Assembly (NCBI RefSeq): GCF_009659535.1
Contig: NZ_VJZZ01000002.1
Coordinates: 186,001 to 250,000, forward strand
DNA: 64,000 nt
Origin: Aggregicoccus sp. 17bor-14
Lineage (GTDB): Bacteria; Myxococcota; Myxococcia; Myxococcales; Myxococcaceae
Direction: 5' to 3'
Part shown: positions 3,114-9,428 of the stretch, piece after piece
How the letters are laid out: each line of letters begins with the position of its first letter
Position numbering within the stretch: position 1 is the stretch's first letter
The notes under the pieces: model-generated
Told to the model about the DNA's origin: nothing
Databases searched by the model: none
Seen by the model: the letters and a program-made list of their open reading frames with translations, nothing else
Program-made: the position numbers and the translations under genes

Positions 3114-5588
3114 CTACCTGCGCCCCCGAACGTTCTCCGCCACGCGCAGCACGTCCGCGAGCACGCCCGCGGCCGTCACGGCGCCCCCCGCTCCCGCCCC
3201 ACGCACGATGAGCGGATAGTCGCGGTAGCGCTCGGTGAAGAAGGCGACCAGCGCCTCCGCGCCGCGCAGCCCCGTCGCGGGGTGCTCGGCGTCCACCGCC
3301 ACGGGCCCCACGCGCAGCCGTGCGCTGCCCGAGGCCCGCATCTCCAACTGCGCGAGGTAGCGCAGGCTGCGCCCCGCAGCCCGGTATCCCGCCACCTGCG
3401 CGGACACCTGCGCGTCATGTGCCTCCAGCGCGCGCAGGAAGCGCTCGGGGTCCTCCTCCGCGAGCAGCGCGCGCGGCACGAGCGGCTCCACCTCCACGTC
3501 CGAGAGCTCCAGCGCGCAGCCCAGCTCGCGCGCGAGGATGAGGGCCTTGCGCGCTACGTCCAGGCCGCTCAGGTCATCGCGCGGGTGCGGCTCGGTGTAG
3601 CCGAGCGCGCGCGCGGTGCGCACGGCCTCGGACAGGGGCGTGCCGGCCATCAGTTGGTGGCAGAGGTAGCCCAGCGTGCCCGAGAAGGAGCCCTCGATGC
3701 GGCCCACGCGGTCTCCCGTGCGCACCAGGTTCTTCAGCGTCTCGATGACGGGCAGGCTCGCGCCCACGGTGGTCTCGTAGTGGTAGGCGCGGAAGTGCTC
3801 GCGCGCCGTCGCGTGCAGCGCGCGGGCCTGTGCGAGCGGCAGCGTGAGGGGCTTCTTGTTCGCCGCCACCACGTGCACGCCCTGCGCGAAGGCTGCCGCG
3901 TACAGCCCTTCCATGGCGTCTGCCGCAGTGCAGTCCACGAGCACCGGGTTGGGCAGGCGCGAGAGCGCAGGGAGCAGCGCTTCCACGACCGGGCCTTCCC
4001 GCGCCTCGGCGAGCTGCGCGAGAGGGCGCTGCAGGCCCCCCGCATCGAACACCGCGCGGCGCCGGTCCGCGAGCCCCACCAGACGCAATGCCACGCCGTG
4101 GCGCTCGCGCAGCGCGACGGCGTTGGCCTCGAGCTGCTGCAGCAGGTGACCGCCCACGGTGCCCTTGCCGAGCAGCAGCACGTTGACCTCCGCGTGGGTG
4201 AGGTTGAAGGCCGCGTGCACGGTGCGCACGGCGAGCGCGGTGTCCTCCGCGGCCACCGCGCAGGAGATGCTACGGCTCGTGGCGCCCTGAGCGATGGCAT
4301 GCACATTGACGCCCACGTTGCCCAGCGCGGCGAAGAAGCGCCCGGCGACATTCGGGCGGTGGCCCATGGCCTCGGCCACCAGGGTGACGAGGGTCACGGG
4401 CGTGCGCGGGGCATTCACACGCACCTCGCCCCGCGCGCGCTCCTCACGCAAGGCCGACTCCAGCAGCGTGAGCGCGCGCGCACCCTGCGCCTCCGGCACC
4501 ACAAGGCTCAGTGACTTGCCGAGCGCGGAGAGGCTGCTCATCCACACGGCGACACCGGAGGACTCGAGCGCGCGCAAGAGCGCAGGCCCCAGCGCGTCCG
4601 TGGGCCCGGCGCGCAGGCTCTCCACGGAGAGCAGGGCGAGCCGCTCCAGGCTCGTGACGCAGGTGGGCCGGTGCGGGTCCGGGTTGCCCACGGCGTCGAT
4701 GCGCGTGCCCTCCCGCTCGGGCTCCGCCGTGCTGCGGATGTGCAGGCTCGCGCCGGCGTCCAGCAGGGGAATCATGGTGCGCGGGTGGAAGAGGCGTGCG
4801 CCGAAGTGGGCGAGCTCGATGGCCTCCGCGTACGTCATGCGCGGCACGCGCTGCGCGTCCGCCACCAGCGCGGGGTCCGCGGTCATCACCCCCGCCACGT
4901 CCGTCCACACCGTCACCTCGCGCGCGCCGAGGAACTGCGCGAGCAGGGTCGCGGTGTAGTCGGAGCCGTTGCGCCCCAGGGTGGTGGTGCGCCCCGCGCG
5001 CGAGCGGGCGATGAAGCCGGTGACGACGGGCACCGCGCCCTCCCAGCCCGCGCTCGCCGCGAGCACGCGCCCGTGGCTCTCGGCCAGCTCTACCTGCGCA
5101 GCGCCCGCGGTGCCATCCGTCACGAGCAGCTCCCGCGCATCCACCGCGAGCGCCCGCGTGCCGCTGGCCTCGAGCGCGCGGGAGAGCAGCTCGGCGCTGA
5201 TGCGCTCGCCCATGGCCATGACGTCGTCCAGCGTGGCCGGGCTGCACTCGCGCGTGAGGGCGATGCCGGTGAGCAGCCGCTCGAGCGGCGCGAGCAGCCC
5301 CTCCAGCGCGCGCTCGAAGCCGCCGAGTGTCTCCGCGGACAGCACCTGCGCGGCCGTGTCCCGCGCGAGCGCCCGCACGCGCGCGACGTGCGCCTCGACA
5401 GAACCTCCCGCCTCGGCGGCGCGCGCCGCCTGGATGAGCCAGTCGGTGGAGTCGCCGAGCGCGGAGACGACCACCGCGAGGGGACGGGGCGCGGCGGCCA
5501 CCCGCGCGAGGACGCGGGGCAGGCGCCCGGGCGTGCCGAGCGAGGAGCCGCCGAACTTGTACACGTGCCAGGGAAGGGGAGAGGTCAT
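3114..5588 (-). CDS. thrA: Bifunctional aspartokinase/homoserine dehydrogenase
   Basis: 824 residues, the usual length for ThrA/MetL fusions. It catalyses the first and third steps from aspartate to homoserine, the precursor of Met and Thr. The N-terminal aspartokinase shows KFGGSSL (about residues 10-16), VTGFIARS and LGRNGSDYTA. Two ACT-type regulatory segments follow (GNVGVNVHAIAQGATSRSIS is the ThrA-like effector signature). The homoserine dehydrogenase starts with the nucleotide-binding GKGTVGGHLL, then AANKKPL, YETTVGASLPVI, GSFSGTLGYL and HPRDDLSGLDVARK. The start overlaps the metX stop in ATGA (5585-5588), so translation is coupled. An intact ACT region suggests feedback control by a pathway end product. 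Its place behind metY-metX suggests that this copy feeds methionine synthesis. Confidence 0.93.
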   Translation of the reverse strand: MTSPLPWHVYKFGGSSLGTPGRLPRVLARVAAAPRPLAVVVSALGDSTDWLIQAARAAEAGGSVEAHVARVRALARDTAAQVLSAETLGGFERALEGLLAPLERLLTGIALTRECSPATLDDVMAMGERISAELLSRALEASGTRALAVDARELLVTDGTAGAAQVELAESHGRVLAASAGWEGAVPVVTGFIARSRAGRTTTLGRNGSDYTATLLAQFLGAREVTVWTDVAGVMTADPALVADAQRVPRMTYAEAIELAHFGARLFHPRTMIPLLDAGASLHIRSTAEPEREGTRIDAVGNPDPHRPTCVTSLERLALLSVESLRAGPTDALGPALLRALESSGVAVWMSSLSALGKSLSLVVPEAQGARALTLLESALREERARGEVRVNAPRTPVTLVTLVAEAMGHRPNVAGRFFAALGNVGVNVHAIAQGATSRSISCAVAAEDTALAVRTVHAAFNLTHAEVNVLLLGKGTVGGHLLQQLEANAVALRERHGVALRLVGLADRRRAVFDAGGLQRPLAQLAEAREGPVVEALLPALSRLPNPVLVDCTAADAMEGLYAAAFAQGVHVVAANKKPLTLPLAQARALHATAREHFRAYHYETTVGASLPVIETLKNLVRTGDRVGRIEGSFSGTLGYLCHQLMAGTPLSEAVRTARALGYTEPHPRDDLSGLDVARKALILARELGCALELSDVEVEPLVPRALLAEEDPERFLRALEAHDAQVSAQVAGYRAAGRSLRYLAQLEMRASGSARLRVGPVAVDAEHPATGLRGAEALVAFFTERYRDYPLIVRGAGAGGAVTAAGVLADVLRVAENVRGRR

Positions 5589-6781
5589 CGCAGGGGCTCC
5601 GGGAGCGCGAGGGCGCGGGTGACGAGCGGAGCGAGCTGCTCCCACTCGATGAGGAAGGCGTCGTGGCCGTGGGGGCTCGCGAGACGGGCGCGCTCCACGT
5701 GCGTGCCCGCGGCCTCCAGCGCTCCGGCGAGCGCGGCGGACTGCGCGGGGGTGAAGAGCTGGTCCGAGTCCACCTCCACCACCAGGCTGCTCGCGCGGAT
5801 GCGCGCGAGGGCCGGAGCACCGTGCTTTCCGGGCGGCGGCTGGAAGAGGTCGTGCGCGTCCATCGCGCCCAGCTGCTGCAGGTAGGCGCGCGCATCGAAG
5901 CGCAGGGAGAGCTTCAGCCCCTGGTGCTCGAGGTAGCCCTGGATGCGCGGAGCACCCGGCGTGCTGGTGGGCTCGGGCGGGAGGTGGCGGCCCTGGCGCT
6001 GCTCGAGGCCGCTCTCGGCGCGGTAGGTGAGCATCGCGAGCTGGCGCGCGAGCTCGAGGCCGCGCTCGATGCGGTCGGGGTAGCCCGGGTCCAGCCGCAG
6101 CACCTCGCGCGCCACGTGGTTGAAGCCCACCACCCACGCGCTCGCGGTGGCGCTGGTGGCCACCGGCAGGAGGCGCCGCACGCGCGAGGGCGAGAGCGCG
6201 CCGAGCGCGAGCGACACCATGCCGCCGAGCGAGCCTCCGGCCACGAGCGCGAGCGGCCCCACACCCAGCGCGTCCAGCGCCTGCAGGTGGGCGCGCGCCT
6301 GGTCCCACGGCGTCACCTCTGCCTGCGCGGGGAAGCCCGGGTCCAGCGGGCCCGAGCTGCCGTAGCAGGAGCCGAGGTTGTTGAAGCAGAGCAGGCGCAC
6401 GCGGGAGGGGTCCAGCGGGCGCCCGGGGCCGATGAGGGGCGCCCACCAGCCGCCCTCGCCGCCCGCGCGCGCATCGCCGGTGAGGGCGTGCACGAGCAGC
6501 ACGGTGGGCACGCGCGGGTCGAGGCCGCTGCCCATCGCGTCCAGGGGGCGGGGTGGAGGCAGCGGCTCGGGGCGCCGCACGACGCCCTGGCTCTCGGAGA
6601 GCCGCAGGGCGGCGGCCGAGAGGGAGCGCGTGCGGGCCGCGAGGACGGGGAGGTCCTGCTCGGGGCCCCACCACCAGCCGCGGGCGTGGTGGGGCTCCAC
6701 CGTGCCGCCGCGGGAGAGCGGCAGCGCGGGCAGGCGCAGGTCGAAGAGCCGCGGGGCATCCGCAGCACGGAACGCTGACAT
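5585..6781 (-). CDS. metX: Homoserine O-acetyltransferase
   Basis: 398 residues, alpha/beta-hydrolase fold. It transfers an acetyl (possibly succinyl) group to homoserine, giving the substrate of MetY. Visible pieces are VLLVHALTGDARAGG (oxyanion region), the nucleophile elbow AGGSLGGM with Ser184 (most family members have GGSMGGM), a catalytic Asp in VDSDQLFTP (about 338-340) and His373 in SPHGHDAFLIEW. ATG 6781 (MSAFRAAD) is preferred over GTG 6793. It lies 79 nt downstream of metY, a gap holding one copy of the palindromic repeat, and overlaps thrA by 4 nt. The acyl donor cannot be settled from these motifs alone. Confidence 0.88.
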   Translation of the reverse strand: MSAFRAADAPRLFDLRLPALPLSRGGTVEPHHARGWWWGPEQDLPVLAARTRSLSAAALRLSESQGVVRRPEPLPPPRPLDAMGSGLDPRVPTVLLVHALTGDARAGGEGGWWAPLIGPGRPLDPSRVRLLCFNNLGSCYGSSGPLDPGFPAQAEVTPWDQARAHLQALDALGVGPLALVAGGSLGGMVSLALGALSPSRVRRLLPVATSATASAWVVGFNHVAREVLRLDPGYPDRIERGLELARQLAMLTYRAESGLEQRQGRHLPPEPTSTPGAPRIQGYLEHQGLKLSLRFDARAYLQQLGAMDAHDLFQPPPGKHGAPALARIRASSLVVEVDSDQLFTPAQSAALAGALEAAGTHVERARLASPHGHDAFLIEWEQLAPLVTRALALPEPLR

Positions 6782-6860: not shown

Positions 6861-8147
<1,287 letters not shown>

Positions 8148-8300: not shown

Positions 8301-8342
8301 CCGCGGGCCGCCTCAGGTCGTGAGGAACCCGGGCACCCGCGG
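8301..8342 (-). promoter_or_regulatory. Stem-loop in the metY leader
   Basis: Outer arms CCGCGGG (8301-8307) and CCCGCGG (8336-8342) pair around an inner hairpin CCTCA (8311-8315) / TGAGG (8321-8325). It begins about 22 nt after the stop of the leader peptide at 8364. No U-tract follows, so it is not an ordinary intrinsic terminator. It is positioned to be opened or formed depending on whether ribosomes stall on the upstream cysteine codons. Confidence 0.45.
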
Positions 8343-8363: not shown

Positions 8364-8423
8364 CTAGCGACAACAGCTGGGACAACACTCACCCGCGAAC
8401 GCGCGCATGCCCGGGCCACGCAT
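8364..8423 (-). CDS. Cysteine-rich leader peptide of metY operon
   Basis: A 19-codon ORF, MRGPGMRAFAGECCPSCCR, stop TAG at 8364-8366. GGAGG lies 8 nt upstream of the ATG at 8423, an ideal Shine-Dalgarno. Four of the last seven codons are Cys (all TGT, a rare choice in such a GC-rich genome). The frame also extends upstream through five more Met codons (at 8450, 8444, 8438, 8429 and within), so longer Met-rich forms are possible. It precedes the metY-metX-thrA operon by about 215 nt. Polycysteine leader ORFs are known to mediate cysteine-responsive attenuation in actinobacteria; a similar role is inferred here. The frame contains no other recognisable domain. Confidence 0.55.
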   Translation of the reverse strand: MRGPGMRAFAGECCPSCCR

Positions 8424-8504
8424 GAGCATGGCCTCCATGGACATCGGCATTCGGGAACGGATGAGCGTCACGGGGGGCAAGGTAAGGGCGGGACCCCGCG
8501 GGTG

Positions 8505-9428
8505 TCAAACGGGATGCGGCGCGAGCAGCGCGCGCGAGGCTGGATCCCAGCGCCAACCGGACGCTGAGGGCTCGGCCAGGCAGGTGCCTCCCCACCACGC
8601 GCGCGCGCCGCTGGCGCCCGAGAGCTCCGCGCCGCCGCGCAAGAGCGCGCGGCCCGTGTCGGTGAGCTGCCAGCCCTCGGGCGCGAGCGCGACGGCGCCC
8701 GCGTGCGCGAGCCCCCGCAGGTGCAGCAGCAGCGTGCTGTCGCCCATCCAGGCGAGCGCCTCGAGCGAGGACCAGCGCACGAAGAGCGAGGGGAAGGGGA
8801 GGGGCCCCGCGGCGAGCACCTGCAGCAGCTGGCGCTCCGTGCGCGGCAGGCCGGAGCCCGGCGCGGGCAGCTCCTCCAGCCAGCGCTCCCACGCGGCACG
8901 CAGGTGGGGCAGGGCGCTGAGGTCCGTCTCCAGCAGTGCGGCGGCGGGGCGCGGGTCGGGCGCGCAGAGGGCCGCCCACGCGCGCACGGCCAGCGCGAGC
9001 GCATCGTCCCCGAGGGCAAGCGCGTTGGACTCCATGCGCGCGCGGGCCTCGGCGTTGGGGATGCGCAGCGGCGGAGGGGCCTCGACGAGGCGCCAGGTGC
9101 CCGCGCCCGAGGGGCGTGAGGCGAGCATGGCGAGCACCTGCACCAGCTGCAGTTGATCGTAGAGGTCGTGCTCGAACCAGAGCGTGCCCTCGTGGGCCTC
9201 GAGCAGCGCGGCGTCGCGCTCGTGCAGCAGGGCGAGCGCCTCGGCGAAGTCGGTCCAGCCGTGGCTCGCGAGGAAGGCGGCGCGCACGGCGGCGAGCGCC
9301 TCCACCGAGAGCCCGGCCGGGACGGGGCCCGCGTGCAGCACGTCCCGCCAGACGACGAGCGGCAGGGCGCCGCAGGACCGCAGCGCGTCCGCGCAGACAT
9401 CCCCGTTGGTCACGTGCACAGGCCCCAT
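8505..9428 (-). CDS. DUF1835 domain protein
   Basis: 307 residues from ATG 9428. The N-terminus MGPVHVTNGDVCADALR is the DUF1835 hallmark (HVTNGD), followed by WRDVLHAGPVP and LWFEHDLYDQLQLVQVL, both conserved in the family. The C-terminal half (FPSLFVRWSSLEALAWMGDSTL, GRALLRGG) resembles the winged-helix-like DUF3658 tail. Family members are cytosolic and of unknown biochemical function. TACATT 6 nt before the start suggests a leaderless transcript; no Shine-Dalgarno is present. It is divergent from msrA, and the shared 204-bp intergenic region contains repeat copy 2. Confidence 0.85.
   Translation of the reverse strand: MGPVHVTNGDVCADALRSCGALPLVVWRDVLHAGPVPAGLSVEALAAVRAAFLASHGWTDFAEALALLHERDAALLEAHEGTLWFEHDLYDQLQLVQVLAMLASRPSGAGTWRLVEAPPPLRIPNAEARARMESNALALGDDALALAVRAWAALCAPDPRPAAALLETDLSALPHLRAAWERWLEELPAPGSGLPRTERQLLQVLAAGPLPFPSLFVRWSSLEALAWMGDSTLLLHLRGLAHAGAVALAPEGWQLTDTGRALLRGGAELSGASGARAWWGGTCLAEPSASGWRWDPASRALLAPHPV

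Follow-up and report, generated by a model that had tools for sequence, protein, structure and literature searches.

A candidate ribosome-mediated attenuator with methionine and cysteine codons before the metY-metX-thrA operon of Aggregicoccus sp. 17bor-14

Methionine operons are usually ascribed to SAM riboswitches, T-boxes or repressors, and the methionine codon also starts most proteins. In the leader-peptide attenuators of the trp, his, thr and ilv type a short open reading frame (ORF) with control codons stands before a biosynthetic operon, as in the locus which we describe here. Leader ORFs with cysteine codons have been described in Actinobacteria, including a mycobacterial polycysteine type (PMC1262725, PMC4633059); the latter is also treated by Canestrari 2020, as cited in PMC13236596. 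In Streptomyces lividans the leader metL, MSTTSDRTPATEATTTPGARCMCRRMCAF, which precedes metNIQ, is predicted to be leaderless and to mix methionine and cysteine codons (PMC8079986). Our literature search for leaders with methionine or cysteine codons gave this one predicted Met/Cys case in Streptomyces and none in myxobacteria.

The locus lies in a stretch of 64,000 nt of Aggregicoccus sp. 17bor-14, the whole of which we call the window. An initial annotation had described an ORF of 19 codons with a GGAGG sequence and four TGT cysteine codons, whose frame continues upstream through extra methionine codons, followed by a stem-loop and by the operon metY-metX-thrA. The ORF is present as described, and protein-family models confirm the operon, with the genes in that order after the leader. 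The promoter and coding features are:

8480..8508, minus strand: candidate promoter TTGACA-17-TTACCT
8471-8364, minus strand: most likely full extent of the leader ORF, with a GTG start, reading MTLIRSRMPMSMEAMLMRGPGMRAFAGECCPSCCR up to the stop codon
8423-8364, minus strand: the ORF of 19 codons first described, reading MRGPGMRAFAGECCPSCCR up to the stop codon; an alternative internal start, whose ATG has a GGAGG 8 nt upstream
8382..8387, minus strand: first pair of cysteine codons, TGTTGT, conserved in four metY copies only
8370..8375, minus strand: second pair of cysteine codons, TGTTGT; the other three metY copies also have cysteine codons here, arranged otherwise
6861..8147, minus strand: metY, O-acetylhomoserine sulfhydrylase (homocysteine synthase)
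5585..6781, minus strand: metX-like homoserine acyltransferase; the best models are MetX, under curated cut-offs
3114..5588, minus strand: thrA, bifunctional aspartate kinase/homoserine dehydrogenase

A MetY search of genome contigs gave only relatives at 56-66% identity.

The upstream extension of the frame is real: beyond 8423 it stays open through four further ATG codons up to a GTG at 8471, which stands just after the candidate promoter, at a distance of 8 nt. The true leader therefore probably has 35 codons and is nearly leaderless. An in-frame start is found 8-12 nt after the -10 box in all four metY-type copies, and the homologous leaders are preceded by the same promoter layout; the window promoter itself is absent from the output of a strict consensus promoter scan. 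When the RNA is folded, hairpin I (see below) hides both the ATG at 8423 and its GGAGG; we therefore regard a start at this position as less probable than one at the GTG. All four cysteine codons of the leader are TGT; the seven clear genes of the window have 21 TGC and 3 TGT. The leader is enriched in methionine and cysteine with P = 4e-8; among 190 control windows the 5% level is 9.4e-3 and the lowest P 1.1e-4. An NCBIfam search with the leader peptide gave no match. For the gene upstream of the leader (307 amino acids, 8505-9428, minus strand) neither Pfam nor NCBIfam gives a model at E 0.001; the putative -35 box of metY overlaps the stop codon of this gene.

We consider it reasonably probable, at about 0.7, that the region 8508-8301 (minus strand) is a ribosome-mediated attenuator of metY-metX-thrA and a divergent member of a family-wide system of Met(/Cys) leaders. 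In our best reading methionine is the main signal, and cysteine a secondary signal in the lineage of the window.

Among the other 95 genomes of the family, three (G045, G081 and G082, which belong to two other genera) have a homologous leader. It stands 180-218 nt ahead of metY, which is followed by metX and thrA. The loss of the ORF beside metY in relatives, which had been proposed as a refutation, is thus not what we find; that it is a leader peptide of the metY operon is supported, and its setting is attenuator-like. After a conserved Glu each of the four metY copies has exactly four cysteine codons with altered spacing (CCPSCC, CCCGC, CCRRCC and CCRCC); therefore the cysteine tail is real and kept. 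It had been suggested that an alignment might show the cysteine ending conserved and the rest of the peptide not. The alignment gives another picture: the invariant residues include EAM.MRGPG.R..AGECC, in which EAM.MRGPG.R..AGE is about as constant as the tail.

A search with a peptide profile extends the set by strong matches in another genus, in each of its six genomes. There a core of about 60 nt stands about 215 nt upstream of thrA, which is followed by two PLP genes of cysteine/methionine metabolism. These peptides have no cysteine tail: they end in MRAFAGGWASSRF (or a close variant) or in MRAFA. Ten copies are thus available, four before metY and six before thrA, and the window-type form of the leader is known in these ten genomes only. 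The Met-rich frame is common to all of them and reads RMPMSMEAMLMRGPGM in seven. It is kept through indels of three, and in G082 the non-initiating methionine codons are down to two. The constant part of the ten leaders is the Met-rich frame RMPMSMEAMLMRGPGM with its surrounding RNA. Other candidates were discarded. The pattern MRGPG..CC, searched in 195 genomes of the phylum, gives mostly chance matches; the one in G155 continues as ECCRTPRN and a stop, with no promoter or Met frame seen ahead. The weak matches of the covariance model which were inspected (L219-L222, L230 and L231) also look like chance; most of them lie inside long open frames.

These comparisons bear on the mechanism first proposed, in which scarce charged tRNA-Cys would stall the ribosome on CC..CC and so increase the expression of metY, in the manner of the polycysteine leaders of mycobacteria; methionine would be incidental in this reading. 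The constancy of four terminal cysteine codons in the metY copies despite their altered spacing speaks for it, as does the presence of cysteine codons in most other leaders of the family. A full-length cysE is found in the genome of the window and in twelve relatives, but a search for it gave no match in G045, G081 and G082, so that these species may be obliged to make their cysteine from homocysteine; this absence is only suggestive, because two of the three assemblies are less than 96% complete. On the other hand, the six thrA copies have the same leader without the tail, several leaders of the family have no cysteine but two to five methionines besides the start, and the cysteine codons follow strand 2 (see below), where a stall would let hairpin I form again. 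A role of the cysteine codons in attenuation is partly supported, but cysteine as the main signal is not, and we hold this reading as unlikely.

The RNA around the ORF has the following elements; the stem-loop originally described, with outer arms of 7 bp and inner arms of 5 bp, is confirmed as hairpin II:

8384..8469, minus strand: hairpin I (strands 1 and 2), which covers most of the leader ORF, z -5.0
8414..8433, minus strand: apical stem-loop GGCCAUGC-UCAU-GCGUGGCC, invariant, which contains the ATG at 8423
8403..8415, minus strand: strand 2 (A), CCCGGGCAUGCGC
8328..8340, minus strand: strand 3 (B), GCGGGUGCCCGGG, with 12 of 13 pairs to strand 2
8301..8342, minus strand: hairpin II; its outer stem and strand 3 overlap

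A single long hairpin that spans the leader ORF can be folded in all ten copies (z-scores from -2.4 to -5.2 in the eight tested); in G006 the fold of a longer stretch pairs differently. At its base the sequence differs between groups and the pairing is kept, with eight pairs changed on both sides among the ten copies. The covariation score is 0.211, compared with 0.106 in shuffles, and none of 500 shuffles reaches it; since the alignment had been fitted to the model, it is biased towards the structure. The alternative pairing A:B over 13 nt can form in every copy, with 11-12 of 13 pairs and a gap of 59-62 nt. Shuffles reach it in 0 of 2000 cases for the window and in 187 of 2000 (9%) for G081, and its covariation is weak. 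When strand 1 is blocked in silico, as it would be by a ribosome on the methionine codons, the minimum-energy fold contains A:B in the ten copies. These models predict mutually exclusive pairings linked to the position of the ribosome. The leader also has a short translatable ORF which is conserved before orthologous operons, and its codons are enriched for an amino acid that the operon makes. A canonical terminator, a hairpin with a U-run, was searched in the window and two relatives and not found; hairpins II and III are present.

The strength and covariation of hairpin I, together with an apical part which is invariant at the nucleotide level, including synonymous positions, could also indicate a structured RNA which binds SAM or methionine, that is, a new riboswitch with the open frame as a by-product of the conserved hairpin. 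A known riboswitch does occupy the same place before metY, instead of the leader peptide, in three genomes of the family:

L092:3018-3133, G041: SAM-I/IV riboswitch RF01725
L089:3005-3125, G080: SAM-I/IV riboswitch RF01725
L127:1511-1631, G051: SAM-I/IV riboswitch RF01725

G041 has the riboswitch though four other members of its genus have the leader. However the ATG codons of the hairpin region are all in the leader frame in the ten copies, and this frame survives indels of three. In other genera the Met/Cys leader ORF persists within a quite different RNA, and the element is a bare extended hairpin with no obvious pocket. Rfam at gathering and permissive thresholds gave nothing credible for the window element: no family, SAM riboswitches such as SAM-I/IV (RF01725) included, matches it. 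A ligand-binding RNA appears quite improbable to us.

A related short ORF precedes most other metY genes of the family and starts about 10 nt after the -10 box; examples are MTSVAFASCRMCMPCGGLPPATG, MFVTSAMCMCSMPVPGGPKPAAAG and MTSLNAMCRMSMPGGLMPSRFG, each followed by a stop. The family gave 45 metY loci, including an overlapping pair from a single genome; at 36 of them the Met/Cys leaders fall below the control 5% level. In one genus the genomes without a close metY carry the leader before metX; one of these leaders reads MTSFFAMMMRRMSMRGGLPPASVG up to the stop, with five non-start methionines and no cysteine. Among 30 distinct leaders the mean number of non-start methionines is 2.9 and never below two, while for cysteine the mean is 1.3 and the minimum zero, which again goes against cysteine as the main signal. 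Three strands, GGTGGGC / GCCCA(C/T)C / GGTGGGC, are found at 31 of the 45 loci. When the Met region of such leaders is blocked, the minimum-energy structure of four out of five still has the 3:4 hairpin, and only L100 switches fully. In the sister family no such leader is found at any of 26 metY loci. The motif CGAATG...ATG is common to the window copy and to many of these leaders; from the layout and this short shared motif, we would place the window copy as a divergent form of the family-wide leader. That it is an unused ORF produced by chance in a GC-rich leader is very improbable: its exact form is limited to ten genomes, but it is conserved at two types of operon, shows covariation and has a Met/Cys enrichment far beyond controls.

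Some loci have other features. In the small genome G084 (L125) the region from 200 to 40 nt before metY has an ORF, MLSEAPPPWKCSMGMRRPGARVLVGRGLC followed by a stop. The sequence CCCGGGC occurs both within this ORF and downstream of it, and the locus may be a remote copy of the window-type leader. In one genus (L087, L090 and L091) metY has no leader and no Rfam match in the last 250 nt. In L087 the palindromes CATCCGCCATGGCGGATG and ATCGACGGATGTTCATCCGTCGAT, which contain GGATG, surround the promoter and are perhaps an operator.

From the conserved ORF with its in-frame methionine codons, the covarying hairpin I, the alternative pairing and the spread across methionine operons, we infer the following mechanism. 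The nearly leaderless ORF of 35 codons would be translated through the long hairpin, most of its methionine codons being in strand 1 and the apical loop. Under a shortage of charged tRNA-Met the ribosome would stall on these codons and free strand 2, which could then pair with strand 3; hairpin II would be broken and expression would proceed. With ample methionine the ribosome would cover strand 2, hairpin II would form and expression would be attenuated. The output may be transcriptional, either intrinsic or Rho-dependent, or translational. In the four metY copies the cysteine codons after strand 2 might add a cysteine-dependent stall acting in either direction; its effect could even be opposite, because a stall after strand 2 leaves strands 1 and 2 free to pair again. 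More tentatively, a single leader might read two sulfur amino acids, methionine in strand 1 and cysteine after strand 2, with the switch responding differently to a shortage of the one and of the other. The cysteine arm would then be confined to operons that begin with metY (direct sulfhydrylation) and be absent before enzymes of the transsulfuration type. This extension is possible, but we regard it as doubtful.

If the main reading is correct, a leader peptide which counts methionine (and cysteine) is found family-wide before metY, metX or thrA, and within one genus it and a SAM riboswitch replace each other from species to species. It would be a natural system in which to ask how a cell senses methionine when the codon read for this also initiates translation.

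In comparison with known systems, the trp, his, thr and ilv attenuators have strands 1-2-3-4 with two exclusive pairings, as in the window element, which differs from them by its methionine (with cysteine) control codons, its nearly leaderless start and a last hairpin with no clear U-run. The mycobacterial polycysteine leaders are likewise short ORFs that end in cysteine codons and stand upstream of sulfur genes, but no sequence resemblance is seen, and here six of the ten copies lack the cysteine tail whereas the methionine codons are constant. The metL leader of S. lividans is known from prediction only, controls uptake and not biosynthesis, and its sequence does not resemble that of the window element; however it shares with it the lack of a clear intrinsic terminator and the presence of a leaderless Met/Cys leader before a methionine gene (PMC8079986).
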